DNA from: Brevundimonas sp.
GTDB lineage: Bacteria; Pseudomonadota; Alphaproteobacteria; Caulobacterales; Caulobacteraceae
Direction: 5' to 3'
Length of the DNA: 36,295 bases
Assembly: GCF_029945885.1 (NCBI RefSeq)
Contig: NZ_JAQSDK010000035.1
Location: 1-36,295, forward strand
In this document: positions 3,847 through 36,295 of the stretch, piece by piece
Layout of the letters: each line of letters opens with the position of its first letter
Position numbering within the stretch: the first letter of the stretch is position 1
Notes under the pieces: model-generated
Told to the model about the DNA's origin: nothing
Database searches by the model: none
The model's input: the letters and a program-made list of their open reading frames with translations, nothing else
Position numbers and translations under genes: made by a program

Positions 3847-3885
3847 GACCGGTCCCCCGTGCCGGAGGGCGGCGGGGGACCGGTC
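3847..3885. terminator. Bidirectional hairpin between convergent genes
   Basis: GACCGGTCCCCC (3847-3858) and GGGGGACCGGTC (3874-3885) form a perfect 12-bp stem with a 15-base loop. It fills the space between the autotransporter remnant (plus) and the end of the HlyD gene (minus), whose stop codon it touches. There is no T-tract on either side; the position and stem strength support a shared terminator. Confidence 0.65.
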
Positions 3886-5081
3886 TAGTCGGCCGGTCCG
3901 GTGCCGGACGCACCGCGAACGCGGCTGCCGTCCCGGATGGCGTCGCCCGGAAAGAGGATGACCCGCTCACCGGCGGTGAGGCCCTCGAGCAAGGTTCGGA
4001 AGCGATCGTCGCCGGTGCCGATGCGGATCGGTGTCAGGCGGGCGCGGCCGTCGATGATGCGGAACACGGCCCAGCCGGTGCTGTTGCGCACCAGGGCGTC
4101 GGTCGGGACACGCAGGGCGTTCGGGGTTTCGCTGACCACGACGCGCACATCCAGGCGGAATCCGTGCCCCAGCGGCGGGGCCGCTTCCGGATCGGACAGG
4201 TGCAGGATCACATTGACGCGCTGTTCCTCGATCCCAAGCGCCGAGATCCTGGTATGGGCAAAGGGCTCGATGATCGAGACCCGCGCCGGCAACACCGTCT
4301 CGCCGCCCCAGCCTTCGAGAAAGGCCGTTGCCCCCGTGGGGATCAGCATGGCGTCCTGGGACAGGAATTCGGCGACGACTTCCAGGTTGGCCGGGTCGCC
4401 GAGCTCGAGCAGGGGTGTGCCGATCAGGACGACACCCTGGCTTGGCCGCAGCAGTTGCAGCACCCGTCCGGAAGCCGGGCTCCGCACCGGTGTCGGAATC
4501 CCGGGCTGGGTAGCGCCCCCGCCTGCGGCGATGCGCGCCCGTTGCAGTTCGGCTTGGCGCGCTGACACTTCGGCCCGCGCGGCGCGTAGCGCCGCGTTGG
4601 CACCGTCAAGGGCGGCCGGGGCGGCGAAGCCCTGTGCGGCCAGACGGGCGACCCGCGTCCGGTCGCGCTGCGCCAGATCGGCACCGGCCTCGGCCGCGGC
4701 GAGGGCGGAGCGGGCGGCGGTGACGACGGCGGCGGCTTCCTGTGCCAGCCGGGCATCGAGCAGGGCGGGATCGGCCGGCAGGATGGTCGCCACAACCGCG
4801 CCGCGTGAGACGGGATCGCCGGGATGCAGTTCGATCCGCTGCAGGTTGCCGGCGACCGGGGCGGAGATGACGAAGACGTCGTGGATGCGGGTGCGGCCCT
4901 CGTCGATGATCTCGCGGCGCACAGGTCCGTGGTCGATCACGGCGACCTCGACCCGCAGCGGCCGGGGCCAGGCCAGCCAGACCAGGCCAATGACCAGCAC
5001 CAGACCGGTCGCGGTCCACAGCCACCGGGCGAGGGACAGGCGGGGGAGGGAAGGGCGGGGGAGGGAAGGGCGTTTCATCAT
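3885..5081 (-). CDS. HlyD/MacA-family periplasmic adaptor of ABC exporter
   Basis: This 398-residue membrane-fusion protein has a short cytoplasmic N-terminus with a repeated SLPR motif, one membrane anchor (about residues 20-38), and a first lipoyl half beginning at VFVISAPVAGNLQRIELHPGDPVSRG. An Ala/Arg-rich alpha-helical hairpin follows (about 105-190, coiled-coil-like heptads such as AALRAARAEVSARQAELQRARI), then the second lipoyl half (PVRSPASGRVLQLLRPSQGVV) and beta-barrel/membrane-proximal domains. Such adaptors link an inner-membrane transporter to an outer-membrane channel. The ATG at 5079-5081 directly abuts the TAG stop of the permease, so the two are surely cotranscribed. No TolC-like gene is present in the window. 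The exported substrate is unknown. Confidence 0.88.
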   Translation of the reverse strand: MMKRPSLPRPSLPRLSLARWLWTATGLVLVIGLVWLAWPRPLRVEVAVIDHGPVRREIIDEGRTRIHDVFVISAPVAGNLQRIELHPGDPVSRGAVVATILPADPALLDARLAQEAAAVVTAARSALAAAEAGADLAQRDRTRVARLAAQGFAAPAALDGANAALRAARAEVSARQAELQRARIAAGGGATQPGIPTPVRSPASGRVLQLLRPSQGVVLIGTPLLELGDPANLEVVAEFLSQDAMLIPTGATAFLEGWGGETVLPARVSIIEPFAHTRISALGIEEQRVNVILHLSDPEAAPPLGHGFRLDVRVVVSETPNALRVPTDALVRNSTGWAVFRIIDGRARLTPIRIGTGDDRFRTLLEGLTAGERVILFPGDAIRDGSRVRGASGTGPAD

Positions 5082-7457
5082 CTAGTCCCTGGCCTTGAGC
5101 ACGGCGACCATGTCGAGGCGATCGACATCCCGTCTGACAATAAGGGAGGCCACGGCGACGCAGACGAGGGCGAAACCGATGGCAAAGGCGTAGCTGCGAG
5201 GATCAAAGACGAAGGCGAAGCTGTACATGTCCGTCTGGAACAGATGCATCAGCCAGATTCCCAGACCGGTGCCGAGGACGCAACCGAGGGGGACGGCGGC
5301 CAGGGCCAGGACGAACAGCTCGCCGATCAGCACATAGGAGGCCTCGATCCGGGTGAAGCCGAGCACGCGCAGGGTCGCCAGGTCGCGCGCCTGTTCGGCC
5401 ATGGTCACCCGGGCCGCGGAAAAGGCCACGCCGCCGGCCATGACCGCAGCGAAGGCGATGTAGATGTAGTTCATGACGCCCACGCCCTCGTCGAACGCGC
5501 GTCGCATCGAGCGTTCCGCCTGACGCAGGAAGCTGGCCCCGGCCAGGACCGGGGTGTCCTTGAGCCGCTGGTTGAAGGCTTCGTACTGCGCCGTATCGAG
5601 GACGATGTGGGCACCGCTGATGCGGCCCGGCTCGCGGAACAGCCGGCCGAGGGCGTCGAGGTTCATATAGGCGGATGAGCCGACCATCGGATCGACGATG
5701 CCCGAGACCCGGACGCGCACCTTCAGCCGCCGGCCTGCGACCTGTTCGACCTCGATCTCGTCGCCCGGTCTTGCGTCCAGCCTGGCCGCCAGGGCGCGCG
5801 CCAGGACGATGCCGGAGGCCGGGGGCTGAAGGGCGCGGCCGCTGCGGCCGATCAACCGGCTGAGGCGGGCATTGAACGGCAGGCCGAGCAGGGCCTCGCG
5901 CACTTCACGCCGGTTCTTGCGCAGGATCACGTCGTCGGCCCGGAACGGCTCGGCATAGATGACGCCGGGCAGGCGTTCGACGCTGTGCAGGACGCCGATC
6001 TCGCGGGGTGACAGGAAGGACAGGGTCGCGTCCTGACGATTGGCGATGGAGAAATGCACGTCCAGCAACTGGTTCATAACGGCCGGGAAGGCTCCGGATA
6101 CGATCAGCAGGGCGATGGACAGGGCCACGCCCAGCACGGTGGTGGCTGCCCGGCGCGGAAAGCGTTCGATGCGCCTGAGAATGATGCGGCTCTTGGCGTC
6201 GAGCCGGCCGGCGAACCGGGCAATCGGGCCGGCGGATTGAAAGAAGGCCGCCGGCTGCGGCGGCGACAGGGCCTCGGCGGGGGCGAGGCGCAGGGCGCTC
6301 CAGACCGAAAAGACCGCGCCGATGCCGGCGGCGACGAACGACCCGATCCAGGCCCCGGCGAAGGTCAGGGGGCCGGCGGAGAATTCCAGCGCCGGGAAAT
6401 GATAGTACGCCCGATAGATGTCGGCGATCGCCCGACCGAACAGGACGCCGGCGACCGAGCCCAGCGCGGCCCCGATGGCAGCGAAGATCAGGGCGCTCTT
6501 GGCATAGTGCCAGGCGACCGCCCGGTCGCTGTAACCGAAGGCCTTGAGCAGGCCGATGTTCGAGCGTTCGGTGGCGATGACCCGGCCGAGGGCGATATTG
6601 ACCAGGAAGGCCGCGATCACGAGGAAGAAGGCCGGCAGGAAGATGGCCATGGTCGCCAGCTGCTTCAGTTCCTCGGTCAGGAACCGGTCCGACACCATCA
6701 GGTCGCGCCCGTAGGCACCGCCCGATCCGAACGGTCGCAGGACGGTGTTGATGGCGGGGATCACCCGGTCGACGTCGGCTCCAGGCGACAGACGGAAGAC
6801 GGCCTCGTTGAAGGCCCCCTCCGTGTCGAAGGCCCGGGCCAGGGCGGTCCGGCTCATCCAGAGCACGCCGAAGCGTTCCGGCTGCGGGAACAGTTCGCCG
6901 GGGGCGGCCACGAATACGAACTCGGGCGAGTTGGCGATGCCGACGATGACCAGGGTGTGGCGGCGTCCATGGATGGTGGCGTCGACCCGGCTGCCGATGT
7001 CGAGGCCGAGCGCCCGGGCGAAGGCCTCGATGACCACGGCCTCCCCGGCCCGGGCCGGATCCGGCAGTCGGCCGCGCACGAGGGCCAGATCATTGATGCG
7101 CGGGCGGCCCTGCAGCGGCAGGGAGACCAGGCGGGCCGAGGCGGGCTCCTGGATCTGCGGCAGGTCGAGCACGGCCAGACCGGTAACCCGGGTCTCGACC
7201 GCCGCGACGTCGGCCACGCGCGCCAGGTCCGCGACGATCCGGTCCGGAGCCCGCACCACCGGTGCCGCCAGGTCCATCATCCGGTAGGCGGAGTAGTAGT
7301 CCGCGCGGGTCTGCTCCAGCGAGCCGCGCATGCCCACGGCCATCACATAGACCGCCAGGCCGCAGCCCAGAACCAGGGCGACCGCGGCCGCATGGACGCG
7401 CATGGTCCAGACGTCCCGCAGCAGCTTGCGGTCGAGGGGATGCAGGGACAGCCTCAC
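5082..7457 (-). CDS. ABC exporter permease with two FtsX-like domains
   Basis: This 791-residue inner-membrane protein has about eight membrane segments (roughly 21-43, 268-292, 320-343, 366-388, 436-458, 661-683, 708-738, 755-774) in two FtsX/MacB-type halves, each with a large periplasmic domain before the membrane bundle. [15 protein letters not shown] (about 297-310) and [15 protein letters not shown] (about 688-702) are the paired cytoplasmic coupling motifs expected to contact the ATPase. The start is GTG 7457, whose bases overlap the TGA stop of the ATPase gene (GTGA), a sign of translational coupling. With the ATPase upstream and the HlyD adaptor downstream it forms a tripartite exporter resembling MacAB or DevBCA systems; substrates of those include glycolipids, lipopeptides and macrolides, but nothing here identifies one. 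Confidence 0.9.
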
Positions 7458-8203
7458 CAGTTCAGCTCCGATGGCGGAACGCGGGTGGCGTTGGTTTCGA
7501 CGCTGCGCACGCGACCGTCCGTGAAATGAATTACCCGCTGGCCGATCCGGGCGACGTCGGCATTGTGGGTGATGATCATCGTGGTCGAGCCGTAGCGGGC
7601 GTTGATCTCGACCAGCGCTTCCAGCACGCGCACGCCGGTCTTCAGGTCCAGGGCTCCGGTCGGCTCGTCACACAGCAGGACCGCCGGGCGTTTGGCGATG
7701 GCGCGGGCCACGGCGGTGCGCTGCTGCTCGCCGCCGGACAGCTGGGCCGGAAAATGATCCATCCGGTTGCCCAGACCGACGAGGTCGAGCGCCTCCTCGG
7801 CACTGAGCGGGTCGTCGGCGATCTCGCGCACCAGATTGACGTTCTCGCGCGCCGTCAGGCTGGGGATCAGGTTGTAGAACTGGAAGATGAAGCCGACGTT
7901 CTTGCGCCGGTAGTCGGTCAGGGCCCGATCGCTCATCGTTGTCAGGGATGTCCGGTGGAAATCGACGTCGCCCGAGGTGGCGCGGTCCAGACCACCAAGA
8001 ATGTTGAGCAGGGTCGACTTGCCCGAGCCGGACGGTCCCAGCAGAATCACCAGTTCCCCCTCGGGAATGTCGAGGTCGATGTCCCGCAGCGCATGCACCG
8101 CTGTCGGTCCGGTGCCGTAGACCTTGGACAGGCCGCGCGTGCGGAAGGCCGGGACCGGGGCGCGATCGGGGGAGGAGGCGGGCGCGGGAACGGACATGGA
8201 CAC
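7454..8203 (-). CDS. ABC exporter ATPase (LolD/MacB-type)
   Basis: This 249-residue nucleotide-binding subunit has Walker [10 protein letters not shown] (56-64), Q-loop [18 protein letters not shown], signature LSGGEQQR (155-162), Walker [13 protein letters not shown] (175-186) and the H-loop in IITHN. The sequence around [16 protein letters not shown] and GEQQR places it with the LolD/MacB/FtsE class, which powers mechanotransmission-type permeases with FtsX domains, as the next gene encodes. The first 15 residues are Pro/Ala-rich. The chosen start is GTG 8203, with GAAAGG about 7 bases upstream; ATG 8197 is the alternative. Its upstream region is shared with divergent ppsA and contains an FNR/FixK-like box 57 bases away, so low-oxygen control of the exporter is possible but unproven. 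Confidence 0.92.
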
Positions 8204-8259: not shown

Positions 8260-8273
8260 TTGATCAGGGTCAA
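8260..8273. promoter_or_regulatory. FNR/FixK-type box upstream of ppsA
   Basis: TTGATCAGGGTCAA fits the FNR/FixK consensus TTGAT-N4-RTCAA. It ends 62 bases before the ppsA start codon. It also lies 57 bases upstream of the divergent ABC ATPase start, so the target could be either or both, but three more boxes in the same island favour ppsA. Confidence 0.7.
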
Positions 8274-8335
8274 GGACGGCGTGACGGACCCGTGCGATCC
8301 GGCCTGTCAGGCTGAAAAGGCGTCGCTGAAACCTC

Positions 8336-10762
8336 ATGCCCGGATCTTCTCCCATTCGCTGGTTCGACACCCTCGGGCTGGACGACGTTCCGCAGGTGGG
8401 GGGCAAGACGGCATCGCTGGCGGAGCTGCACAGACTCCTGGCGGGCGGCCCCGTAACCGCGCCCGACGGATTCGCGGTCACGGCGGCGGCCTACCGCGAG
8501 GCGCTGACGGCGGCCGGGGCGTGGGAACCGCTGCGGGCCCTGCTGCAGGATCTGGATGTCCGGGACGTCACCGCCCTGGCCCGGGCAGCCACGGCCGCGC
8601 GGGCCCTGGTCTATGACGCGACGGGCGGGACCGGGCTGAGGGACGCGATTGCCGCCGCCTATCGACGTCTGCAGGCGCAGAACGGGCCCGGACTGTCGGT
8701 GGCGGTGCGCAGTTCGGCCACGGCCGAGGACCTGCCGACGGCCAGTTTCGCCGGTCAGCACGACAGTTTCCTGCACATCGCGGATGAGGACGGGCTGGTC
8801 GAGGCCTGCCGCCGCTGCTTCGCCTCGATCTTCACCGACCGGGCCATCGTCTACCGGGTCAACAACGGCTTCGACCACCTGAAGGTCGCCCTGTCGGTGG
8901 CGGTGATGCGGATGGTGCGCTCGGACGAGGCGGCCAGCGGCGTGGCCTTCACCCTGGACACGGAGTCCGGCTTCCGCGACGTGGTCTTCATCACCGGGGC
9001 CTGGGGGCTGGGCGAGAACATCGTTCAGGGGCGGGTCGGGCCCGATGAGTTCTATGTCCACAAACCCACCTACCGCCAGGGCTATCGGGCCGTGCTGCGC
9101 CGGTCGCTGGGCAGCAAGGAGACGCGACTGGCCCATCGCCGGGCAGACCCGGGCGGGGTGCTGCACAGTTTTCGCGTGTCGCGCCGGGATCGCGAACGCT
9201 ACTGCCTGGACGATGCCGAGGTTCTGGACCTGGCCGGGGTGGCGATCCGGATCGAGGATCATTATTCGCAGCACGCCGGCGCGCCCATGCCGATGGATAT
9301 CGAATGGGCCCGGGATGCCGGGGACGGCCGGCTTTATGTCCTGCAGGCCCGGCCGGAGACGGTGGCGTCGCGGCGCGATCCGGCGACCTTCGACACCTAT
9401 CGCCTGACCGGCGAGGGGCCGGTGCTGGTCACCGGCAAGGCCGTCGGCGAGGCGATCGCCAGCGGCCGGGCGCGTCTGGTGCAGTCGGCTGCGGATCTGA
9501 AGGCCTTTCAGCCGGGCGAGATCCTGGTCGCCCCCTCGACCAGTCCCGACTGGCTGCCGGTGATGAGGATCGCCGGCGGTATCGTCACCGACCAGGGTGG
9601 GCGCACCTGCCACGCCGCCATCGTCGCCCGCGAACTGGGCGTGCCGGCGGTGGTCGGGGCGGCGGGCGCGACGGCGCGGCTGGAGACGGGGCGGATGGTC
9701 ACCGTGTCCTGCGCCGAGGGCGAGGCGGGGCGGGTCCTTGACGGGGCTGTCCCCTTCGCGGTGGATCATCTGTCGCTGGACGCCATTCCGCGCCCGCGCA
9801 CACCGATCATGGTCAATCTGGCCCAGCCCGACCTGGCCTTCCGCACCGGCCTGCTGCCGGCGGCGGGGGTCGGACTGGCCCGGATGGAGTTCATCATCGG
9901 TGAGCAGATCGGCATCCATCCGATGGCGGCGGCCCATCCCGAGCGGGTGACGTCGCTGCGGGAACGGCAGGCCGTCGTCAGGCGGTCGCGGGGCGACGCC
10001 TCGCCCCGAGATCATTTCATCCGCCTTCTGGCCGAGGGCGTGGGGACCATCGCCGCCGCCTTCCATCCGCGACCGGTGATCGTGCGTCTGTCGGATTTCA
10101 AGACCAATGAATATGCCCGTCTGCTGGGCGGGGCGGCGTTCGAGCCGGTCGAGGAGAATCCGATGCTGGGGTTCCGCGGGGCGTCACGCTACGCCCATCC
10201 GCGCTATGCCGACGGCTTCGCCCTGGAGTGTGAGGCGCTGCGCCGGGTGCGCACGGACATGGGCCTGACTAATCTGAAGGTGATGGTGCCCTTCTGCCGG
10301 CGGGTCGGCGAGGCCGAGCAGGTGCTGGCGGTCATGGCCGGGCACGGTCTGAAGCGCGGCGACAACGGGCTGGAGGTCTATGTCATGTGCGAGATCCCCA
10401 ACAACGTCATCCAGTTCGACGCCTTCGCCGCCCTGTTCGACGGCTTTTCGATCGGATCCAATGATCTGACCCAGCTGGTGCTGGGGGTCGACCGCGACTC
10501 CGAGGCCGTGGCCTTCGATTTCGACGAGCGCGATCCGGGCGTGCTGGAGATGCTGCGGCAGGCGGTTGAGGGCGGCCGGCGTAACGGCTGCCCGGTCGGC
10601 ATCTGCGGTGAGGCCCCGGCGACCTGGCCGGAGATCGCCGCCTTTCTGACGCGACTGGGCATCGGCTCGATCAGTGTCAATCCGGCCAGCCTGGCGCAGA
10701 CGATGACGGTCGTGGCCGCGCATGAGGCGGCCATGGCCGCCGCTTCAGATTATCCGGTTTGA
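8336..10762 (+). CDS. ppsA: Phosphoenolpyruvate synthase (pyruvate, water dikinase)
   Basis: This 808-residue cytoplasmic enzyme converts pyruvate, ATP and water to phosphoenolpyruvate, AMP and phosphate. Domains in order: the N-terminal ATP-grasp domain with VGGKTASLAEL (21-31), AVRSSATAEDLPTASFAGQHD (123-143) and the ARPET end of the nucleotide site (338-342); the swivelling phosphohistidine domain with GGRTCHAAIVARELG, catalytic His426; and the C-terminal PEP-binding barrel with GVGLARMEF (511-519), FSIGSNDLTQLVLGVDRDS and GICGEAP (catalytic Cys757). All key residues are present and the length is normal. The start ATG 8336 has only a weak ribosome site. It opens the island with FNR/FixK boxes, consistent with a role in rebalancing carbon flow at low oxygen. 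The Hsp20 box overlaps its last codon and stop. Confidence 0.95.
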   Translation: MPGSSPIRWFDTLGLDDVPQVGGKTASLAELHRLLAGGPVTAPDGFAVTAAAYREALTAAGAWEPLRALLQDLDVRDVTALARAATAARALVYDATGGTGLRDAIAAAYRRLQAQNGPGLSVAVRSSATAEDLPTASFAGQHDSFLHIADEDGLVEACRRCFASIFTDRAIVYRVNNGFDHLKVALSVAVMRMVRSDEAASGVAFTLDTESGFRDVVFITGAWGLGENIVQGRVGPDEFYVHKPTYRQGYRAVLRRSLGSKETRLAHRRADPGGVLHSFRVSRRDRERYCLDDAEVLDLAGVAIRIEDHYSQHAGAPMPMDIEWARDAGDGRLYVLQARPETVASRRDPATFDTYRLTGEGPVLVTGKAVGEAIASGRARLVQSAADLKAFQPGEILVAPSTSPDWLPVMRIAGGIVTDQGGRTCHAAIVARELGVPAVVGAAGATARLETGRMVTVSCAEGEAGRVLDGAVPFAVDHLSLDAIPRPRTPIMVNLAQPDLAFRTGLLPAAGVGLARMEFIIGEQIGIHPMAAAHPERVTSLRERQAVVRRSRGDASPRDHFIRLLAEGVGTIAAAFHPRPVIVRLSDFKTNEYARLLGGAAFEPVEENPMLGFRGASRYAHPRYADGFALECEALRRVRTDMGLTNLKVMVPFCRRVGEAEQVLAVMAGHGLKRGDNGLEVYVMCEIPNNVIQFDAFAALFDGFSIGSNDLTQLVLGVDRDSEAVAFDFDERDPGVLEMLRQAVEGGRRNGCPVGICGEAPATWPEIAAFLTRLGIGSISVNPASLAQTMTVVAAHEAAMAAASDYPV

Positions 10763-10772
10763 TGGAGGTCAA
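10759..10772 (+). promoter_or_regulatory. FNR/FixK-type box upstream of hsp20
   Basis: TTGATGGAGGTCAA matches TTGAT-N4-RTCAA. It overlaps the final codon and stop codon of ppsA and ends 62 bases before the hsp20 ATG, the same spacing as at ppsA. CAGAAT at 10796-10801 could serve as the -10, which would put the box centre near -42, the classical class II position. That -10 is weak. Confidence 0.65.
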
Positions 10773-10834
10773 TGTATTCGGGGATCGTCCTGTTGCAGAA
10801 TGCTGACGTTGTCCCCCAAACACGGAGAAGCGTC

Positions 10835-11305
10835 ATGGCAAGCCAAGCAAAAAGCAAGCTTAACATTCCCGATTTGCAGCGGTCGGCTATCGGAACATTT
10901 GCGCCAATACAGCGCGAGTTCAACCGGTTATTCGATGAGCTCGGCAACGGCTGGAGCCATCTGACCCAGTTCGAGCTGACTCCGCGGACGGATATGACCG
11001 AGACCAAGGAGGCGGTCACGCTGACGATGGAGCTGCCCGGCATGACCCGTGACGACCTGACGATCGAGGTGGAGGATCATGTGCTGACGGTCAGCGGCGA
11101 GAAAAGGTCCGAGACGGAAACCGAGAAGGACAATTACCGGATTTCCGAACGCAGCTACGGGGCCGTTTGCCGGTCGGTGACCCTGCCGACCAGCGTCAAG
11201 GAGGACAAGATCAAGGCGACAATGGCGGACGGCGTCCTGACCCTCGTCGCGCCCAAGGACGGCAGCGCCACGACCCGGACCATTCCGATCCAGGGCGGAA
11301 AATAG
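10835..11305 (+). CDS. Hsp20/alpha-crystallin small heat-shock protein
   Basis: This 156-residue ATP-independent holdase has an N-terminal arm (about 1-48, with FAPIQREFNRLFDEL), an alpha-crystallin domain (about 49-145) starting at TPRTDMTETKEAVTLTMELPGM and containing DLTIEVEDHVLTVSGEK, SYGAVCRSVTLP and the ADGVLTLVAPK strand, and a short tail with the IPI motif (TRTIPIQ) used for oligomer contacts. ATG 10835 is chosen because CGGAGAAG precedes it and similarity starts there; an in-frame ATG 21 codons earlier overlaps the regulatory box. It follows ppsA, with its own FNR/FixK box in between. A box-controlled Hsp20 next to Usp genes recalls HspX of the mycobacterial dormancy regulon. Confidence 0.93.
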   Translation: MASQAKSKLNIPDLQRSAIGTFAPIQREFNRLFDELGNGWSHLTQFELTPRTDMTETKEAVTLTMELPGMTRDDLTIEVEDHVLTVSGEKRSETETEKDNYRISERSYGAVCRSVTLPTSVKEDKIKATMADGVLTLVAPKDGSATTRTIPIQGGK

Positions 11306-11341
11306 CCGCGCCATCCTGTGGCAGGCGGCGCGCCGGGTGGG

Positions 11342-11386
11342 CCCCGGTGCGTCGCTGTCGCCCGTTTCGGGCGAGGCTCACCGGGG
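11342..11386. terminator. Nested hairpin between convergent hsp20 and cytochrome c
   Basis: The outer arms CCCCGGTG (11342-11349) and CACCGGGG (11379-11386) enclose a perfect inner hairpin TCGCCCG-TTT-CGGGCGA (11358-11374). It lies 36 bases past the Hsp20 stop and overlaps the last codons of the oppositely oriented cytochrome gene, so it probably ends both transcripts. Confidence 0.6.
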
Positions 11387-11776
11387 TGGCGGACGGTCCT
11401 GGCTCAGCGTTTCCAGCCAGGCCATAAGGTCGTCGATCTCGCTGGCGCGGAAGACATAGTCGGGCATGGCCGGATGGCTGGTGACCAGCCCGTCGGCGAA
11501 ACCGTCGGCCAGGGACTCCGGGGCGCGGCGGGCGGCGATGTCGCGCAGCGGCGGGGCCGCAGCCAGCGGGCTGGCGTCGTCGCGGCCGATTGCATGGCAG
11601 CCGGAACAGGCGGTGACGGCGAAGACCCGGCCGCGCTCGACCGCCTCGAGCCGGGTCTGGTCGGCGGCAGGGCCCGGGGGGATGGCCTGGCGCGAGTCCG
11701 CGGCTCCGCAACCGGCCACCGCCAGAGCCAGCGCCGATGCCAGCATCCCGCCTGTTCGTCCTGTGATTTTCGCCAT
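11378..11776 (-). CDS. Lipoprotein mono-haem cytochrome c
   Basis: This 132-residue small class I cytochrome c has a signal peptide ending in the lipobox LAVAGC (Cys23), so the mature protein should be lipid-anchored on the periplasmic side. The haem site is CSGCH (about residues 57-61) and the sixth ligand is probably Met in SHPAMPDYVF; the final helix SEIDDLMAWLETL is typical. An electron-transfer role is inferred from the fold; the partner is unknown. The start ATG 11776 has a strong GGAGG about 5 bases upstream. It is divergent from the universal stress gene and shares with it a perfect FNR/FixK palindrome 54 bases from its start, so it may serve microaerobic or anaerobic respiration. Confidence 0.88.
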   Translation of the reverse strand: MAKITGRTGGMLASALALAVAGCGAADSRQAIPPGPAADQTRLEAVERGRVFAVTACSGCHAIGRDDASPLAAAPPLRDIAARRAPESLADGFADGLVTSHPAMPDYVFRASEIDDLMAWLETLSQDRPPPR

Positions 11777-11829
11777 CGTGACCTCCAGCCCAACCTTGCG
11801 AACATTGGAGCCGGAACCGCCGGCTGACC

Positions 11830-11843
11830 TTGATCCTGATCAA
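11830..11843. promoter_or_regulatory. Perfect FNR/FixK palindrome between cyt c and usp
   Basis: TTGATCCTGATCAA is a fully symmetric FNR/FixK site, the best of the four in this window. It ends 52 bases before the universal stress protein start (plus) and begins 54 bases from the cytochrome c start (minus), so it is almost centred between divergent genes and could drive both. Confidence 0.8.
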
Positions 11844-11895
11844 GGCCCGATGGTCGCGGACGTGATGTCTGGTGGTACCTTAGGAGGATTGCGCG

Positions 11896-12717
11896 ATGAC
11901 CTGTCCGAGCCTGCTTGTCTATGTCGATGACAGTGAAGAGAGCGACGCCCGCGTTGAACTGGCCTGTGATCTGGCGGTCAGTTTTGATGCCCTGGTGATC
12001 GGGATGTCGGCCAGTCTGCCGCAGCCGCCGATGCTGGATCCGATCTCGGGCATGGGTGACGTCCTGGCCCTTTATCGACAGACCGCCGAGGCCGAGGTCG
12101 AACGGGCCGGGGTACGGTTCCGGGCGATCGTTGAAGCCCGGTCTGTGCGCAGTGAATGGCGCGCCGGGCTGGAGTCTCCCGGCTGGATGCTGTCCGAAGC
12201 GGCCCGGGCCGCAGACATGCTGATGCTCGGCCAGAAGGCCCCGGGTGTGCCGTTCCGGTCGCCCGATCCGGCCGACGTCATTCTGTCCGCGGGTCGACCG
12301 GTGCTGATCGTGCCGCCGGTGCGGGCCCGGTCGCCGGTGGGTGAGCCGGCGCTGGTGGCGTGGAAGGACACGCGTGAGTCCCGGCGCGCGGTGGCGGCGG
12401 CCCTGCCCTTGCTGCGCAGGGCCTCGCGGGTGGATGTGGTCGAGGTCGCGGCCACGACGGACATGGCTGCCGCCGAGGCCCGCGTCCGGGATGTCTGCGA
12501 ATTCCTGGGTCGGCACCAGATCGAGGCGGCAGCGAACCCGCTGGACGATGCCGGCGAACCGACAACGGTGCGGATCCTTGCGGAGGCGGGCAGGCTCAAG
12601 GCCGGGCTGGTGGTCGCAGGCGGCTATGGCCACGGTCGGATGCGCGAATGGATGCTGGGCGGGGTGACCCGGTCCCTGCTGACCCACAGCGACGTCTGTG
12701 TGTTGATGGCCCACTGA
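11896..12717 (+). CDS. Tandem-domain universal stress protein (UspA family)
   Basis: This 273-residue cytoplasmic protein has two Usp folds. The first (about 1-140) starts SLLVYVDDSEES and lacks a clear ATP loop. The second (about 150-273) starts PALVAWKDTRESRRAV and ends with VVAGGYGHGRMREWMLGG (240-257) followed by VTRSLL, which matches the G-x2-G-x9-G-(S/T) ATP-binding pattern. Tandem Usp proteins of this type are common in oxygen-limitation regulons, where they are linked to survival rather than catalysis. The start ATG 11896 has a strong TAGGAGG 8 bases upstream. A perfect FNR/FixK box precedes it. The phosphoribosyltransferase starts 18 bases after its stop, so the two are likely one transcript. 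Confidence 0.93.
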   Translation: MTCPSLLVYVDDSEESDARVELACDLAVSFDALVIGMSASLPQPPMLDPISGMGDVLALYRQTAEAEVERAGVRFRAIVEARSVRSEWRAGLESPGWMLSEAARAADMLMLGQKAPGVPFRSPDPADVILSAGRPVLIVPPVRARSPVGEPALVAWKDTRESRRAVAAALPLLRRASRVDVVEVAATTDMAAAEARVRDVCEFLGRHQIEAAANPLDDAGEPTTVRILAEAGRLKAGLVVAGGYGHGRMREWMLGGVTRSLLTHSDVCVLMAH

Positions 12718-12735
12718 AGCCGGAGGAGGATGGTC

Positions 12736-13407
12736 ATGACCCTGCAGCGCGCGCTGTTCGCCGATCGTACGGACGCCGGACAGAGGCTGGCCGGGCGTGT
12801 GGTCGCGGCGGGCGTGACCGATGCGATCGTCTATGCCCTGCCGCGCGGCGGGGTACCGGTCGCCCTCGAGATCGCCCGGGCCCTCGACGCGCCGCTCGAC
12901 CTGGTGCTGGTGCGCAAGATCGGCGCCCCCGGCCAGCCGGAACTGGCCCTGGCTGCGGTGGTCGACGGCGGGTTTCCCCAGATCGTCGTCAATGAGGCGG
13001 TGCAGCGCATGACCGGGGCCACGCCCGTCTATCTGGCCCAGGAAAAGGCCCTGGCCCTGGCCGAGATCGAACGGCGTCGGCAGCTCTATTTCGGCAACCG
13101 GACCCACCCGAACCCCCGGGGACGGACCGTGATCCTGGTCGACGACGGCCTGGCCACCGGGGCGACGGCGCGGGTGGCGGTCCAGCAACTGCGGATGCGC
13201 GGGGCCGGGCGGGTCGTCCTGGCGGTTCCGGTAGTGCCCGGGAGCAGTCTGGAAACGTTGCGGTCCGAGGTCGATCTGCTGGTCTGCCTGGCCCATCCGG
13301 CCGAGTTCCGCAGCGTCGGAGCCTTCTATGCCGATTTCCACCAGCTCTCGGATGAGGAGGTGCTGGACCAGCTGGCCGAGGCGGCCCGGTTCGGCGGCGG
13401 GGCCTGA
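12736..13407 (+). CDS. Phosphoribosyltransferase-domain protein
   Basis: This 223-residue protein has a type I phosphoribosyltransferase fold. ALPRGGVPVALEIARAL (35-51) and LVLVRKIGAPGQPELALAAV (57-76) are the N-terminal signatures, and TVILVDDGLATGAT (131-144) is the PRPP-binding loop. The substrate is unknown; proteins of this subfamily lack a typical nucleobase hood and their activity is not established. Start: ATG 12736 lies 6 bases after GGAGGAGG, whereas ATG 12730 would touch it, so 12736 is preferred. It follows the Usp gene by 18 bases and is convergent with the dienelactone-hydrolase-like gene 6 bases away. As I recall, the same domain is fused to dienelactone hydrolase or erythromycin esterase domains in mycobacterial dormancy proteins. 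Confidence 0.9.
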   Translation: MTLQRALFADRTDAGQRLAGRVVAAGVTDAIVYALPRGGVPVALEIARALDAPLDLVLVRKIGAPGQPELALAAVVDGGFPQIVVNEAVQRMTGATPVYLAQEKALALAEIERRRQLYFGNRTHPNPRGRTVILVDDGLATGATARVAVQQLRMRGAGRVVLAVPVVPGSSLETLRSEVDLLVCLAHPAEFRSVGAFYADFHQLSDEEVLDQLAEAARFGGGA

Positions 13408-13413
13408 CCCGGA

Positions 13414-14073
13414 TCAGCGCGACGCGCGATGCAGGTGGCCCAGGTGGTCGGCGAACCAGTCGCCGGCGATGCGGATGACCTGATCCATGGCCCCGGGCTC
13501 CTCGAACAGATGGGTCGCGCCGGGAACAACGACCAGACTTGCCGGGCCGCCGAGACGCCGGCCGGCCTCGCGGTTCCAGCCCAGCACCGGCTCGTCGTCC
13601 GAGCCGACGATCAGCAGGGTCGGGGCGCTGACCCGGTCGAGGGCGTCGGCGGCCAGGTCGGGCCGGCCGCCGCGGGACACGACGGCGGCGACCGCTTCCG
13701 GCCGGACGGCGGCGGCCTTCAGGGCGGCGGCCGCGCCGGTGCTGGCCCCGAAGAGGCCGACGGGCAGGGCCGCCAGGGCCGGCTGGGCCCGGACCCAGTC
13801 GATGGCGTCGACCAGCCGGCCGGCAAGCAGGTCGATGTCGAAGACATTGGCCCGATCCGCGGCCTCGTCCCCGGTGAGCAGATCGAACAGCAGGGTGTCG
13901 AGTCCGACTTCGGCCAGGGCCTCCGCCACCTGACGGTTGCGGGGACTGAGGCGGCTGGAGCCGCTGCCGTGGGCGAAGATCACGATGCCCGCCGGTCGGG
14001 GGACGCGTCGTAACTCGCCCGGAAGCCCGACCGGGGGAATGGCGACGGCGGTGACGGTCAGGGTGTCCGGCAT
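13414..14073 (-). CDS. Dienelactone-hydrolase-like alpha/beta hydrolase
   Basis: This 219-residue cytoplasmic hydrolase has no signal peptide. It shows IVIFAHGSGSSRLSPRN (30-46), the nucleophile elbow GLFGASTGAAAAL (Ser111), the acid in LLIVGSDDEPV (Asp159 or Asp160) and the catalytic His in GATHLFEEPGAM (His188). This pattern is typical of a small hydrolase family annotated as dienelactone hydrolase or phosphoribosyltransferase-associated hydrolase; the true substrate is unknown. The start ATG 14073 has GGGAG about 9 bases upstream. It is divergent from the erythromycin-esterase gene, and the FNR/FixK box between them is 68 bases from its start, so it may belong to the same regulon. Confidence 0.88.
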   Translation of the reverse strand: MPDTLTVTAVAIPPVGLPGELRRVPRPAGIVIFAHGSGSSRLSPRNRQVAEALAEVGLDTLLFDLLTGDEAADRANVFDIDLLAGRLVDAIDWVRAQPALAALPVGLFGASTGAAAALKAAAVRPEAVAAVVSRGGRPDLAADALDRVSAPTLLIVGSDDEPVLGWNREAGRRLGGPASLVVVPGATHLFEEPGAMDQVIRIAGDWFADHLGHLHRASR

Positions 14074-14141
14074 GGCACAGGGCTCCCGCCGGTCGACGGA
14101 CCGGCGACCTTCGAAATCTAGGCCCTTGACCGGCGGCTGCG

Positions 14142-14155
14142 TTGATCCGGGTCAA
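14142..14155. promoter_or_regulatory. FNR/FixK-type box upstream of ere-like gene
   Basis: TTGATCCGGGTCAA matches TTGAT-N4-RTCAA and ends 56 bases before the plus-strand erythromycin-esterase-family start. A sequence around GGTAAG (14177-14182) is placed where a weak -10 would be expected. The divergent hydrolase start is 68 bases away on the other side. Confidence 0.7.
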
Positions 14156-14211: not shown

Positions 14212-15522
14212 ATGACCGTCCCCGTCCAGTCGACCGGTGATCCGATCGTGGAGGTTCTGCGGCGACGGGCCGAGCCTCTGGCCGACATCGACGATCCGGC
14301 CTTCGCCGCCGCCTTCGACCGGTTCGGGGATGCCCGGGTGGTCCTGCTGGGCGAGGCCAGCCACGGCACATCGGAATTCTATCGGGCCCGGGCCGCGATC
14401 AGCCGGCGACTGATCGCCCAGCACGGCTTCCGGATCGTCGCCATCGAGGCGGACTGGCCCGACGTGGCGGATCTGGACAGGTTCGTCCGCAATCGCGGTG
14501 TCTGGGGCCAGGCCGACAGTTTCGTCAATTTTCCGCGCTGGATGTGGCGCAATGCCGAGTTCGCCGCCTTCGTCCGGGACCTGCGCGGCTGGAACCTGGA
14601 ACGGGACACCCCGGACCGGGTGGCCCTGCGTGGTCTCGACGTCTACAGCCTGTCGCGATCCCTGACCGAGGTCCTGACCTATCTGGACCGGGTCGACCCC
14701 GGGGCGGCGGCCGACGCGCGCGAGCGCTACAGCTGTATCGCGCCGTTCCTGGCGGAACCCCAGCGGTACGGCGCGGCGGCCCATGCGGGATATGTCGACT
14801 GCGAGGATGAGGTCGTGTCCCAGCTGGTCGCCCTGCTCAGGCAACGGCCGGCCTATGTCCAGTCCGACGGCGAGGCCTTCGCCGACGCCGAGCAGAACGC
14901 CCGGGTCGTGGCCGCCGCCGAGGGCTATTACCGGGCCATGTATCGCGGATCCGTCGAGAGCTGGAACCTGCGCGACAGCCATATGTTTGACACCCTGGAG
15001 CGGCTGCTGCGGGCGGACGGCGGCGGGGGCAAGGCGATCGTCTGGGCCCACAACTCCCATATCGGTGACGCCTCGGCGACGGCCATGGGGGCTTCCGGGG
15101 AGTTCAACATTGGCCAGCTGTGCCGCGAGCGGTTCGGCCGTGACTGCGTGGCCATCGGTTTCGGCACCGACCGCGGCCGGGTCGCCGCGGCCGACGACTG
15201 GGGCGGGGCGATGCATGTCAAGACGGTCCTGCCGTCACGCGGCGACAGCTGGGAGCGGCTGTTCCACGAGGCCGGGGTGGATCGCTCCCTGACCGACTGG
15301 CGGTCCGATTCCGGCCTGGCCCGGGTCCTGGACCGGACACGGCTGGAGCGGGCCATCGGCGTGATCTACCGGCCGGAGACGGAACGACGCAGCCACTATT
15401 TCGAGGCCCGGCTGTCGCGGCAGTTCGACGCCTTCGTCTGGTTCGACGAGACCCGGGCGGTTCGGGCCCTGCCGGGACAGCCGCCCGAGGGGGCACCGGA
15501 CACCTATCCATTCGGCCTGTGA
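14212..15522 (+). CDS. Erythromycin-esterase family protein
   Basis: This 436-residue protein of the erythromycin esterase (Ere/succinoglycan-biosynthesis-associated) family has VVLLGEASHGTSEFYRARAAI (43-63) with Glu48 and His51, and FRIVAIEADWPD (73-84). The second half has AIVWAHNSHIGD, which supplies another conserved His. True macrolide esterases are a small part of this family; most chromosomal members, like this one, have no proven substrate, so a resistance role should not be assumed. The start ATG 14212 follows GGAGGT at 8-9 bases. The gene sits at the end of the FNR/FixK-box island next to phosphoribosyltransferase and dienelactone-hydrolase-like genes, which points to a role in low-oxygen or dormancy physiology. 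No signal peptide is seen. Confidence 0.9.
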   Translation: MTVPVQSTGDPIVEVLRRRAEPLADIDDPAFAAAFDRFGDARVVLLGEASHGTSEFYRARAAISRRLIAQHGFRIVAIEADWPDVADLDRFVRNRGVWGQADSFVNFPRWMWRNAEFAAFVRDLRGWNLERDTPDRVALRGLDVYSLSRSLTEVLTYLDRVDPGAAADARERYSCIAPFLAEPQRYGAAAHAGYVDCEDEVVSQLVALLRQRPAYVQSDGEAFADAEQNARVVAAAEGYYRAMYRGSVESWNLRDSHMFDTLERLLRADGGGGKAIVWAHNSHIGDASATAMGASGEFNIGQLCRERFGRDCVAIGFGTDRGRVAAADDWGGAMHVKTVLPSRGDSWERLFHEAGVDRSLTDWRSDSGLARVLDRTRLERAIGVIYRPETERRSHYFEARLSRQFDAFVWFDETRAVRALPGQPPEGAPDTYPFGL

Positions 15523-24810: not shown

Positions 24811-26166
24811 TCAGTCGTCGGCCAGGACGGCGTCGTCGCCGGGTCCGGCCGCCGGGTCCGGCGATGCGGCCAGCGGCGGTGAGCCGCTGTCGAGGGCGAG
24901 CTTCAGGGCGTCGCGATCCAGTTCGCCCTCCCAGCGCGCCACGACGATCGTGGCCACGGCATTGCCGATGAAGTTGGTGAGGGCCCGGCACTCGCTCATG
25001 AAACGGTCGATGCCGAGGATCAGGGCCATGCCCGCGATCGGCACGCTGGGCACGACGGCGAGGGTGGCGGCCAGGGTGATGAAGCCGGCCCCGGTGATCC
25101 CGGCAGCCCCCTTGGAGCTGATCATGGCCACGAGAAGCAGCAGGATCTGGTCCTGCAGGCTGAGGTCGATGTTCAGGGCCTGGGCGATGAACAGGGCCGC
25201 CATCGTCATATAGATGTTGGTGCCATCCAGGTTGAACGAATAGCCGGTGGGGACCACCAGGCCGACGACCGATTTGGAGGCGCCCGCCCGTTCCATCTTA
25301 TCGATCAGACTGGGCAGGGCCGCCTCGGACGACGAGGTACCGAGCACCAGCAGCAACTCCTCCTTCAGGTAGCGGATCAGCTTGAGGATGTTGAAGCCAT
25401 TGGCGATCGCGACGAGGCCAAGCACGCCCACGACGAAGACGATTGCGGTCAGGTAGAAGGTGCCGATCAGCATGGCCAGATTGGCCACGGTACTGATGCC
25501 ATAGGCCCCGATGGTGAAGGCGAAGGCTCCGAAGGCTCCGATCGGGGCCGCCTTCATCACGATGGCGACCAGTCTGAACACGGCGGCGCTGACCGATTCC
25601 AGGAAGGTCACCACCGGCTTGCCGACGTCGCCGGTCAGGGTCAGGGCAATCCCGAACAGGATGGAGACGAACAGGACCTGCAGGATGTTGCCGGTCGTGA
25701 AGGCGCTGACCAGGGTGTCGGGAATGATCCCGGTCAGGAAGCCCTGGATCGTGGTCTCGTGCGCGGCGGCACTGTACTGGCTGACCGCACCGGCGTTCAG
25801 GGTCGCCGGATCAATGTTGAGGCCGCGCCCCGGCTGGATCACATTGGCAGTGACCAGGCCGACGATCAGGGCCAGGGTCGAGAAGACCAGGAAATAGCCG
25901 AAGGCCTTGGCCGCGACCCGACCGACCTTGCCGATGTCGCGCATGCCGGTGATGCCGGTGACGATGGTCAGGAAGATCACCGGGGCGATGACCATCTTCA
26001 CCAGTTTGATGAAGGCGTCGCCCAGCGGCTTGAGCGAAACGCCGACGTCAGGCCACAGATGGCCGATCAGGCCGCCGGAGACGATGGCGACCAGCACCAT
26101 GAAATAGAGGCTGAGGTAAAAGGGGCGGCGCACGGCGGGCGTGGCTGGACCGGTGACGGGTTGCAA
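24811..26166 (-). CDS. dctA: C4-dicarboxylate/proton (cation) symporter DctA
   Basis: This 451-residue inner-membrane transporter of the DAACS (glutamate/aspartate:cation) family imports succinate, fumarate and malate. Similarity to E. coli DctA is strong throughout: [42 protein letters not shown], the hairpin tip [15 protein letters not shown], the substrate/cation motif [38 protein letters not shown] and [22 protein letters not shown]. Start: GGGGAGG lies 7 bases before TTG 26166, giving the usual length; the in-frame ATG at 26268 has no ribosome site and would add 34 unlike residues. The gene is divergent from dctB-dctD, with two DctD-like operator sites in between. A weak -24/-12-like sequence (TGGC-N8-GGGC, 26234-26248) is the best sigma-54 candidate. 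Confidence 0.95.
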
Positions 26167-26344
26167 CAAAGGACCTCCCCAGGGACCGGTACGCGGGACC
26201 GGCCTCGATACGCGCTCTCTGACGGAGCGCCTCGCCCCAATATCGCCATGTTGAAACGGCCGGAACAACCCGACGCAGGGCGCGATCTAATGAACTGTAA
26301 GTATTCACTAAAAGTGGAATGACTTGGCAGTGCGCCCTGCAAAA

Positions 26345-26362
26345 TGTGCGGAATTCCGCACG
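26345..26362. promoter_or_regulatory. DctD-type operator, perfect palindrome
   Basis: TGTGCGGAATTCCGCACG contains a perfect 16-bp palindrome (26346-26361) and matches, from memory, the rhizobial DctD upstream-activator sites (TGTGCGGAAWTCCGCACA). It is about 180 bases from the dctA start and 40 from dctB, so it can serve both. Confidence 0.75.
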
Positions 26363-26376
26363 CCCGGTCTAGGTTT

Positions 26377-26394
26377 TGTGCGCAATGTCGCATA
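26377..26394. promoter_or_regulatory. Second, weaker DctD-type operator
   Basis: TGTGCGCAATGTCGCATA repeats the TGTGCG-N6-CGCA layout of the palindrome at 26345. The centres are 32 bases apart, about three helical turns, so two regulator dimers could bind the same DNA face. It ends 8 bases before the dctB start, a position that could repress dctBD when occupied. Confidence 0.55.
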
Positions 26395-26402
26395 GGTGGG
26401 AT

Positions 26403-28208
26403 ATGGCTGTTGTGACCTCTTCCTCGACTCAATGGCGACTCTTCGGCGTGGCCTGGCTGGTGATCGCCGTGGCGGCTGTCGCGCTCGGCGGCGAGGTCGC
26501 GCGCCGTGATGGCAAGGAGTCTGTGCGGCGACAGGCGACGACGGCCAGCGCCCTGCATGCGGCGGTGTTGCGCAGTGAACTGGAGCGGCACCGCTCCCTG
26601 CCGACCGTTCTGGCCCAGGATCCGGACCTCGTCGCGATGCTGTCGCGGCGCGATGCCGCCAGCGCGGACCGGCTGAACCGGAAATATGAAGGTCTGGCCC
26701 GGGATGTCCGTGCCGCCGCCATCTATGCGCTCGATGCCAACGGGCTGACGGTGGCGGCCAGCAACTGGCAGCTGCCGACCAGTTTCATCGGGTCCAGCTA
26801 CCGCTTCAGACCCTATTACCATGAGGCCATGCGCGACGGTCAGGCGAGCTTTTTTGCGCTGGGAACGGTCAGCGGTCGGCCGGGGCTCTATCTGTCACGA
26901 CGGGTCGACGACCCGGCCGGGCGGCCCCTGGGCGTCATCGTCGCCAAGGTCGAGTTCGATGCGCTCGAGGCCGACTGGCGCGCATCGGGCGAGCCAACCT
27001 ATGTCACCGACAGTGACGGCGTTGTCCTGATCACGACCGTGCCCGGCTGGCGGTTTCATACGACGGAACCACTGACGGCGGACCGGCGTCGCCGCCTGGC
27101 CGCCGACCAGACGGCGGGGGCCACCGTCCCGGTGCCCCTGCCCTTCGAAGTCGGGGCGGACGGGCTTGTGCGTATCCAGGCCGATGTCCCGGCCGGCCTC
27201 TATGCCGAGGCCACCGATCCGATCGCCGATACCGGCTGGCGGCTGAATCTGCTGGTGCCGGCAGGGGAGACGATATCGCGCGGCGTGATGATGGCGCGGC
27301 TTCTGGCCCTGTTGAGCATCGCCCTGCTGGCGACCCTGAGCGGGATCGTCCTGCGCCGTCGTCAGCGGGCCGCGGCGCGGGCGGTCGAGGCGGAACGGGA
27401 CCGGCTTGAGCTGGAGCACCGGATCGACCTGCGGACCTCGGAACTGCGTGCCACCAATGACCTGCTGAGCCATGAGATCGATGAGCGCCGACGGCTCGAG
27501 ACGATCCGGCAGGATCTTCAGGATGAACTGATCCAGGCCAATAAACTGGCCACGCTGGGACAGATCGCGGCCGGGGTGGCGCATGAGATCAACCAGCCCA
27601 TCGCCGCCATCCGCACCCATGCCGACAGCGCCTCGCTGCACCTGAAACGAAATGACGGGGAGGCGGCGCAACGCTCGCTGGCCAGTATCGACGGCCTGAC
27701 CCAGAGGGTCGGGGCCATCACGGATGAACTGCGCGCCTTTTCCCGCAAGACCCGGTCGGAGACCGTGGCGGTCGGGGTGAACGCCGCCGTTGACGGTGCC
27801 CTGCTGCTCGTGGGGGGGCGGCTCAGGGAGAAGGGGGTGACGCTGGAGTGGAATGCCGCGCCCGCGGCGCTGGCCGTTCTGGCCGAACGCAATCGCCTTG
27901 AACAGGTGATGCTGAACCTGCTGCAGAATGCCATGGAGGCGCTGGACGGGGTCGCGGCACCGGTCATCGGCATCGGCGTGGATGTGAAGGGCAGGACGGT
28001 GTCGATCCATGTCACCGACAACGGGCCCGGCGTCAGCGCGACGGTACGCCAGCGGCTGTTCACCCCGTTTACGACCGACAAGAGCGACGGTCTGGGCCTG
28101 GGGCTGGTCATCAGCCGTGACATTGTCGCCGGGTTCGGCGGCGAGCTGACGCTGGAGCCGACGCTGAGCGGAACCCGGTTTGTCATCCGGCTGGCGAAGG
28201 CCCGATGA
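26403..28208 (+). CDS. dctB: C4-dicarboxylate sensor histidine kinase DctB
   Basis: This 601-residue membrane kinase senses external dicarboxylates for the DctBD pair. It has an N-terminal membrane helix (about 9-28), a periplasmic double-PAS sensor with SSYRFRPYYHEAM and GTVSGRPGLYLSRRV, a second membrane helix (about 300-316), a coiled-coil linker (ARAVEAERDRLELEHRIDLR), the H-box GQIAAGVAHEINQPIAAI, and the ATPase domain with N-box NLLQNAMEAL, DNGPGV and GLGLGL. The start ATG 26403 follows AGGTGGG by 3-5 bases; upstream in-frame TTG (26376) and ATG (26385) overlap the operator. It shares ATGA with dctD, so the two are translationally coupled. Confidence 0.95.
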   Translation: MAVVTSSSTQWRLFGVAWLVIAVAAVALGGEVARRDGKESVRRQATTASALHAAVLRSELERHRSLPTVLAQDPDLVAMLSRRDAASADRLNRKYEGLARDVRAAAIYALDANGLTVAASNWQLPTSFIGSSYRFRPYYHEAMRDGQASFFALGTVSGRPGLYLSRRVDDPAGRPLGVIVAKVEFDALEADWRASGEPTYVTDSDGVVLITTVPGWRFHTTEPLTADRRRRLAADQTAGATVPVPLPFEVGADGLVRIQADVPAGLYAEATDPIADTGWRLNLLVPAGETISRGVMMARLLALLSIALLATLSGIVLRRRQRAAARAVEAERDRLELEHRIDLRTSELRATNDLLSHEIDERRRLETIRQDLQDELIQANKLATLGQIAAGVAHEINQPIAAIRTHADSASLHLKRNDGEAAQRSLASIDGLTQRVGAITDELRAFSRKTRSETVAVGVNAAVDGALLLVGGRLREKGVTLEWNAAPAALAVLAERNRLEQVMLNLLQNAMEALDGVAAPVIGIGVDVKGRTVSIHVTDNGPGVSATVRQRLFTPFTTDKSDGLGLGLVISRDIVAGFGGELTLEPTLSGTRFVIRLAKAR

Positions 28209-35776: not shown

Positions 35777-36295
35777 TCCGGCTTTCTGTCGCCCTGTTGC
35801 CGCTGATGCTGGTCGCCGGGCCGGCCCTTGCCCAGTCCCACGCCGGGCACGCCCCGGCCGTCCGGGCCCAGGCCGCGCCCTTGCCGGCCGGTTGCGTCCG
35901 TCGTGGCGCGCCCGATGCCGATCCGGCCCGCACCGGAACCCGCGGGGCCCCGGTCTGCCCGACCGGGTCGGTTCCCGCCCGGCGGCCGGCTCCCGCGCCC
36001 GCGCCCCACGCCGGTCACGCCATGCCGGGCATGGGCACGGCTCCGGCCGCGCCTTCGACCGGTCCGCACGCCGGCCACGCCATGTCGGGCATGGGCACGG
36101 CTCCGGCCGCGCCTTCGACCGGTCCGCACGCGGGCCACGCCATGTCGGGCATGGGCACGGCTCCGGCCGCGCCTTCGACCGATCCGCACGCGGGCCACGC
36201 CATGTCGGGCATGGGCACGGCTCCGGCCTCGCCCCCGGCTGATCCGCACGCGGGCCACGATATGTCGGGCATGGGCACGGCTCCGGCCGCGCCTT
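35773..36295 (+). CDS. copB: CopB copper-resistance protein, 5' part
   Basis: The frame starts at ATG 35773 overlapping the copA stop and remains open to the window end, so only the first about 174 codons are seen. It has a Sec signal peptide (MIRLSVALLPLMLVAGPALA) and then a His/Met-rich region in which a 20-residue unit (PHAGHAMSGMGTAPAAP core) is repeated five times. CopB/PcoB proteins are outer-membrane barrels with a Met/His-rich N-terminus that binds copper, and the position after copA fits. The barrel itself lies outside the window, so the identification rests on context and the N-terminal composition. Confidence 0.85.
   Translation, partial: MIRLSVALLPLMLVAGPALAQSHAGHAPAVRAQAAPLPAGCVRRGAPDADPARTGTRGAPVCPTGSVPARRPAPAPAPHAGHAMPGMGTAPAAPSTGPHAGHAMSGMGTAPAAPSTGPHAGHAMSGMGTAPAAPSTDPHAGHAMSGMGTAPASPPADPHAGHDMSGMGTAPAAP
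36001..36295 (+). repeat. 60-bp in-frame tandem repeat in copB
   Basis: Four complete and one partial copies of a 60-base unit follow each other without spacer from 36001. Each encodes 20 residues with HAGHA and MSGMG, that is two His and two Met per unit (three of each in some). Copies two and three differ at a single base (36072), while the outer copies have drifted more, the usual picture of expansion by replication slippage. The array continues past the window end. Confidence 0.95.

Follow-up and report, generated by a model that had tools for sequence, protein, structure and literature searches.

Four FNR-type boxes mark a candidate low-oxygen island of stress, exporter and esterase genes in a Brevundimonas genome

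Why should one short palindrome occur four times within 5.9 kb of a Brevundimonas contig, each time in front of a gene start? We analyzed the 36,295-nucleotide (nt) contig NZ_JAQSDK010000035.1 of Brevundimonas sp. (assembly GCF_029945885.1), hereafter the window, in which a first-pass annotation had described four FNR/FixK-type boxes defining a low-oxygen island with ppsA, a small heat-shock protein gene (hsp20), a universal stress protein gene (usp) and an erythromycin-esterase-family gene. That interpretation is supported overall, as far as sequence comparison reaches. The four boxes probably serve as FNR-type operators through which an FnrL-like regulator would activate an island with seven gene starts when oxygen is scarce, a reading to which we give a probability of roughly 85%. 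It is drawn from the excess of the motif, its position in promoters, its spacing to -10-like elements, its partial recurrence in relatives and the low-oxygen targets elsewhere in the genome.

The box pattern was TTGAYNNNNRTCAA, that is, TTGAY-N4-RTCAA, and exact matches were counted. A search of the window returned the four boxes at the positions first reported:

8260..8273, no strand: FNR-type box TTGATCAGGGTCAA, between the divergent ABC exporter ATPase gene and ppsA
10759..10772, no strand: FNR-type box TTGATGGAGGTCAA, before hsp20 and across the ppsA stop codon
11830..11843, no strand: FNR-type box TTGATCCTGATCAA, between the divergent cytochrome c gene and usp
14142..14155, no strand: FNR-type box TTGATCCGGGTCAA, between the divergent dienelactone-hydrolase (DLH)-like gene and the erythromycin-esterase-family (EE) gene, with its footprint kept in two relatives

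All have the palindromic TTGAT-N4-ATCAA-like form of an FNR-type (class II) operator. The box at 11830 had been called perfectly symmetric, which is true of its half-sites and not of its spacer. In 100 dinucleotide shuffles of the window, the pattern occurred 0.04 times on average and once at most, and when the 19 sites found in the whole genome were placed uniformly at random, some four of them fell within 5.9 kb in 3 of 20,000 trials, in agreement with the earlier statement that four copies are not a chance result. The distances from the box end to the ATG, on recounting, are those given before: 62 nt for ppsA (ATG at 8336), 62 nt for hsp20 (10835), 52 nt for usp (11896) and 56 nt for the EE gene (14212). 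Positions 40-80 nt before a start make up ~2.6% of the stretch, giving ~5e-7 for four of four, with a range picked after the gaps were known.

The described overlap of the hsp20 box with the ppsA stop codon was confirmed, the stop (10760-10762) being located inside the box. The same box contains a GGAGG run (10764-10768) and ends on the A of an ATG (10772) that is in frame with hsp20 and would lengthen it to 177 aa, starting right behind the ppsA stop; the ATG at 10835 has a GGAGA of its own. At 10759-10774, the operator is thus superimposed on a stop codon, a ribosome-site-like run and an alternative start. A weak box, TCGATCAGTGTCAA, is situated at 10667-10680 in the end of ppsA, 92 nt upstream of the hsp20 box, possibly by chance.

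Two of the boxes had been placed between divergent genes, the cytochrome c/usp and DLH/EE pairs; both placements hold, and the box at 8260 makes a third. On the opposite strand, the ABC ATPase start is 56 nt (GTG at 8203) or 62 nt (ATG at 8197) from the 8260 box, the cytochrome c ATG is 53 nt from the 11830 box, and the DLH-like ATG is 68 nt from the 14142 box. As three boxes are divergently shared, seven start codons in the island are found at 52-68 nt from a box, and the ABC/FtsX/HlyD exporter (3885-8203) is drawn in. The left limit of the candidate low-oxygen island moves from the first box to 3885.

We compared TATAAT-like matches starting 20-24 nt past the box, an offset range set only after the sequences had been viewed, with those of shuffled sequences; the p-value of 2e-4 obtained in each test is the floor of 5000 shuffles. 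The mean was 3.2 versus 2.13 for 15 promoters of the genome itself (leaving out the moaA/binding-protein, ribonucleotide-reductase/hemerythrin, cydDC-side, autotransporter and remaining sites), and 3.27 versus 2.27 for 11 of 20 Usp promoters of relatives (leaving out eight near-duplicate Mesorhizobium sequences and locus L033, with a gap of 142). This -10-like spacing would place the box centers at about -38.5 to -42.5, near the -41.5 of class II sites.

Whether the divergent boxes act in both directions is the question on which an alternative survives best, namely, that the sites are real FNR sites to which only the forward genes respond, with the exporter, cytochrome c or DLH gene merely sharing the intergenic region. 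By eye, the -10-like element on the exporter side of the 8260 box is weak, whereas a TAGATT element with fitting spacing is present on the DLH side of the 14142 box. The available text on Dinoroseobacter shibae describes one FNR site that serves divergent promoters from -39.5 and -41.5 (PMC5398030), a precedent for shared boxes that proves two-way use possible rather than general. The DLH-box-EE arrangement speaks for the reverse genes. In two relatives with EE orthologues of 72% identity (G384 and G421), a DLH gene again lies divergently to the EE gene (matched in two pieces in G384) with a box in between, the gaps being 36/77 and 70/53 nt. In the alignment of this box with the two relatives, eight of the ten fixed positions do not vary, the remaining two show only T/C or A/G changes, and the N4 spacer is not kept; around it, 27 of the 142 other aligned positions are invariant, i.e., the surrounding DNA has diverged. 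In addition, HlyD, ABC subunits, class I cytochrome c and Hsp20 are predicted in the alphaproteobacterial FixK core regulon, in the excerpted text of the study concerned (PMC2908626). We consider a forward-only response rather unlikely, the least so of the alternatives.

Which protein would bind the boxes? The HTH_Crp_2 domain was found above cutoff at four places in the genome (C14, C33, C4 and C26). The C14 protein (245 aa) has the CRP/FNR architecture, with a cNMP-binding domain and HTH_Crp_2, and contains a C-X2-C-X7-C motif, a fourth cysteine at a central position and a recognition helix that reads TVSRVL. Three N-terminal cysteines and one central cysteine are the set expected for the Fe-S cluster of FNR/FnrL. 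The CX2CX7C motif is present in 26 and an upstream box in 10 of the 30 genus homologues with locus sequence (own genome in both counts), taken from the 49 of 61 genomes having a match. NCBIfam assigns the C33 protein to FtrB (NF006901, 349.9 bits, cutoff 211), and this protein has no Fe-S cysteines; the C4 protein passed no NCBIfam model and has no Fe-S cysteine pattern; the frame at C26 resembles a MarR-type protein by eye. FixK lacks the Fe-S cysteines, and FixK as the regulator was considered and is less favored because the C14 protein carries them. The cognate regulator is hence more likely of the FNR (Fe-S, FnrL-like) type, and we infer oxygen sensing by the C14 protein. Its score is below the cutoff of 300 both for the curated FnrL model NF045989 (161.5 bits), on account of which we call it FnrL-like and not FnrL, and for the Caulobacter FixK model NF050806 (150.2 bits), and its closest solved-structure match by sequence is FixK2, followed by the Fe-S FNR. 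Of the double label FNR/FixK given to the boxes, the FNR side is therefore better supported by the cysteines, with neither family model passed.

These scores leave room for the idea that the boxes are bound mainly by another CRP/FNR protein, the FtrB-type one beside a narK-like gene or a FixK-type one, and that the signal is something other than oxygen perceived through an Fe-S cluster. The target sequence is common to FNR, FixK and DNR proteins, according to the excerpted text (PMC2908626), the FtrB-family gene itself has upstream boxes, and the FnrL-like protein is nearly as close to the FixK model as to the FnrL one. However, among the four HTH_Crp_2 places the Fe-S cysteines are found at C14, and the C33 and C4 proteins pass neither the FNR nor the FixK model. 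We regard this alternative as improbable.

Scanning the whole genome (3,125,547 bases), which the first-pass annotation had put forward as a check, returned 19 pattern sites versus 2 for the reversed control. Outside the island there are 15 sites, and eight of them stand before genes in keeping with low oxygen, among them the regulator gene; the labels narK, cydDC and molybdate-type are readings from Pfam matches and neighbors. The 15 sites are as follows:

One box, gap 62 nt: before the FnrL-like regulator gene
One box, gap 73 nt: before cydA (cydAB), divergent from a cydDC-like ABC pair
One box: at a second usp/cytochrome c pair
Two boxes: between a narK-like MFS gene and ftrB
One box: between moaA and a molybdate-type binding protein gene
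One box: between ribonucleotide reductase and ScdA/hemerythrin genes
One box: before a host-attachment protein gene
One site, no low-oxygen target recognized: before an HWE-type kinase gene
One site, no low-oxygen target recognized: 116 nt from an autotransporter gene
One site, no low-oxygen target recognized: inside a histidine kinase gene
One site, no low-oxygen target recognized: at overlapping lysylphosphatidylglycerol-synthase/SDR frames
Three other sites: not assigned to a gene

In the C14 cluster, an extra box (L005:10353-10366) is located in an unannotated stretch between the cytochrome c gene and the FnrL-like gene.

We then examined relatives. Eighty Usp loci from named records (1.43 Mb) contain 128 motif sites, versus a median of 1 for 60 permuted half-sites, which served as the controls; the runners-up (60 and 58) share the TTGAT/ATCAA subset. 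A box is situated 20-250 nt upstream of the Usp match in 20 of the 80 loci, and the best of the 59 other permutations reached 3. Locus L022 has the same cytochrome c-box-usp arrangement as the island, and the nearest named Usp locus belongs to Brevundimonas sp. UBA986. For the esterase, 18 EE loci (17 from the class survey and G010) were searched over 1000 nt from the longest frame start; six have a box, 55 of 60 permutations gave 0, and the best other gave 2. The clusters that recur, with PRT denoting a phosphoribosyltransferase gene, are box-EE-DLH-PRT (L173, L174) and box-PRT-EE-DLH (L187); L186, outside the six counted loci, has box-hsp20-PRT-EE-DLH. Brevundimonas is also the name attached to several of the nearest homologues of the esterase (best 120 of 7998 listed).

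ppsA (E <= 1e-100) is present in 9 of 61 genomes, own included, and has a sole match in its own genome at that threshold. In each of five genus relatives with ppsA matches of 66-79%, G006 (in two pieces), G010, G012, G021 and G027, a box precedes a gene run consisting of a Usp-type gene, PRT and ppsA; this Usp-type gene is 28-32% identical to the C14 Usp of our genome. Exporter homologues are also found near ppsA, with the ATPase at 61-64% in G010 and G012, the permease at 42-45% in G012 and G010, and a HlyD homologue (40%) downstream of ppsA in G012. Of the four stretches with PpsA homologues of 50-53%, both from G044 have an upstream box.

Besides the late choice of the -10 offset range and the family-model scores and structural match of the regulator, several observations weigh against the FNR operator reading. 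Seven of the 15 other genomic sites are without a nameable low-oxygen target. In the stretches searched, 60 of the 80 Usp loci and 12 of the 18 EE loci have no exact box, and neither do G007 and G057 among the four PpsA stretches; for three EE homologues from the genus (57-60%), the stretch shows neither a DLH match nor a box, the latter also when one mismatch is allowed. In B. diazoefficiens, the PEP (phosphoenolpyruvate) synthase blr4655 and HlyD blr7872 are induced and are unmarked as FixK2 targets in the excerpted lists (PMC6515984). A functionless chance cluster of a dyad motif, to which the site within the histidine kinase coding sequence (1 of 19) and the several sites lacking a recognizable target would lend some color, was rejected as very improbable, being opposed by the shuffle mean of 0.04, the 19 versus 2 sites of the genome control, the placement trials, the permuted half-sites, the -10 spacing and the box positions kept in relatives.

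Under the preferred reading, the FnrL-like protein, likely with an oxygen-labile iron-sulphur cluster, would bind the boxes and, from about -41.5, activate transcription at low oxygen, and the three intergenic boxes would act in both directions. The chaperone, Usp, PEP synthase, exporter, cytochrome c and esterase cassette may together aid survival of the energy shortage in microoxia. The island spans ~12 kb and contains the following genes, with family names from Pfam:

3885..5081, reverse strand: HlyD-family membrane fusion protein gene of the exporter operon (PF13437)
5082..7457, reverse strand: FtsX/MacB-type ABC permease gene (PF02687, PF12704)
7454..8203, reverse strand: ABC transporter ATPase gene (PF00005)
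8336..10762, forward strand: ppsA, phosphoenolpyruvate synthase by NCBIfam (NF005057, 1041 bits, cutoff 598), a PEP-utilizing enzyme by Pfam
10835..11305, forward strand: hsp20, small heat-shock protein gene (PF00011)
11378..11776, reverse strand: small cytochrome c gene (PF00034)
11896..12717, forward strand: usp, universal stress protein gene (PF00582)
12730..13407, forward strand: phosphoribosyltransferase-domain gene, 12 nt after usp (PF00156)
13414..14073, reverse strand: dienelactone-hydrolase/alpha-beta-hydrolase-like gene (PF01738)
14212..15522, forward strand: erythromycin-esterase-family gene (PF05139, 424.6 bits)

The wiring of stress genes to FNR/FixK is already known in alphaproteobacteria, and the island is a further, accessory case rather than a new wiring, since the published FNR/FixK regulons and microoxia lists hold Usp, Hsp20, HlyD/ABC, cytochrome c and PEP synthase. 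As excerpted, the D. shibae FnrL regulon is similar in its Fe-S CRP/FNR regulator, in TTGAY-N4-RTCAA-like sites, some at about -41.5, in Usp genes as direct targets and in the use of one site for divergent promoters (PMC5398030). It differs in that the boxes here are grouped in an accessory island, which holds ppsA and hsp20 along with an esterase/DLH/phosphoribosyltransferase cassette, and in that the boxed terminal oxidase here is cytochrome bd. The Rhizobiales FixK/FixK2 regulons share the membership of Hsp20, HlyD, ABC, cytochrome c, Usp and host-attachment proteins in the text available (PMC2908626, PMC6515984), whereas the regulator here carries Fe-S cysteines. UspA is predicted in the FNR regulon in the first of these (PMC2908626). 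In the second, PEP synthase, Usp, Hsp20, HlyD and host-attachment proteins are among the excerpted microoxia-induced genes of B. diazoefficiens, with Hsp20 blr7961, Usp blr2761 and bll6069 (two of four Usp entries) and host-attachment bll5315 (one of two) as FixK2 targets (PMC6515984).

What interests us most is the gene content (Hsp20, Usp, phosphoribosyltransferase and esterase) common to the island and the mycobacterial operon Rv2028c-Rv2031c. That operon is under DosR two-component control, unlike the island with its CRP/FNR-type control. The available text names DevR-DevS for it and describes its products as Usp, phosphofructokinase, PRT/erythromycin-esterase and Hsp20, induced by hypoxia (PMC4410610); the likeness described here is one of gene content, and the PRT and esterase domains form one protein in mycobacteria and separate genes here. 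Tentatively, and at less than even odds, Hsp20, Usp, phosphoribosyltransferase, the DLH-like hydrolase and the 'erythromycin esterase' could be a portable cassette for low-oxygen survival that was wired independently to unrelated oxygen sensors, through FNR-type boxes here and in other alphaproteobacteria and through DosR in mycobacteria. If so, the esterase would act in dormancy or macromolecule repair, not antibiotic resistance. The common gene content also opens a way to study the function of the esterase cassette outside mycobacteria. The repair idea comes from the fusion of the esterase to an isoaspartate-methyltransferase-like domain in several relatives. Several alphaproteobacterial esterases have an N-terminal extension of 240-290 residues, which by eye is protein-isoaspartate-methyltransferase-like in L175, L180 and L184; L175 and L180 have boxes at 52 and 88 nt upstream, respectively.

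A macrolide resistance (Ere) role was rejected on the NCBIfam scores: the island esterase passes none of the EreA, EreB and EreD models and reaches only 34.1 bits on the best, EreB (cutoff 750), so that it is not to be named a resistance gene. Among the papers searched, none mentioned 'erythromycin esterase' alongside any of four pairs of terms: FixK and universal stress protein, FNR and microaerobic, isoaspartate and low oxygen, DosR regulon and phosphoribosyltransferase. The island would link this family with low oxygen instead of drug resistance, and it would add an accessory Brevundimonas case to the FNR/FixK stress regulon of alphaproteobacteria. Its DLH-box-esterase and cytochrome c-box-usp regions offer compact promoters for studying bidirectional FNR activation.

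The window shows no composition-based signal of horizontal transfer, with a GC content of 0.66-0.73 and no sharp step at the island edges; the sole hint is the patchy presence in the genus, where 6 of 131 genomes, counting this one, have the esterase. A structured-RNA or tRNA context was rejected as well, since Rfam gave no match at its gathering cutoffs and no tRNA was found. Outside the island, REP-like peptides (REGGDP...VPAFAGM) can be read on both strands at 44-442, a repeat type of caulobacterial and sphingomonad intergenic DNA. By eye, 24811-29629 contains a C4-dicarboxylate-type symporter gene with a divergent pair of sensor kinase and NtrC-like regulator (DctABD-like). A 60-bp tandem repeat (4.8 copies, 93% matches) occupies 36007-36295 at the right end of the window, and the gene beside it (34034-35776) appears by eye to be multicopper-oxidase-like, with Met/His-rich stretches.

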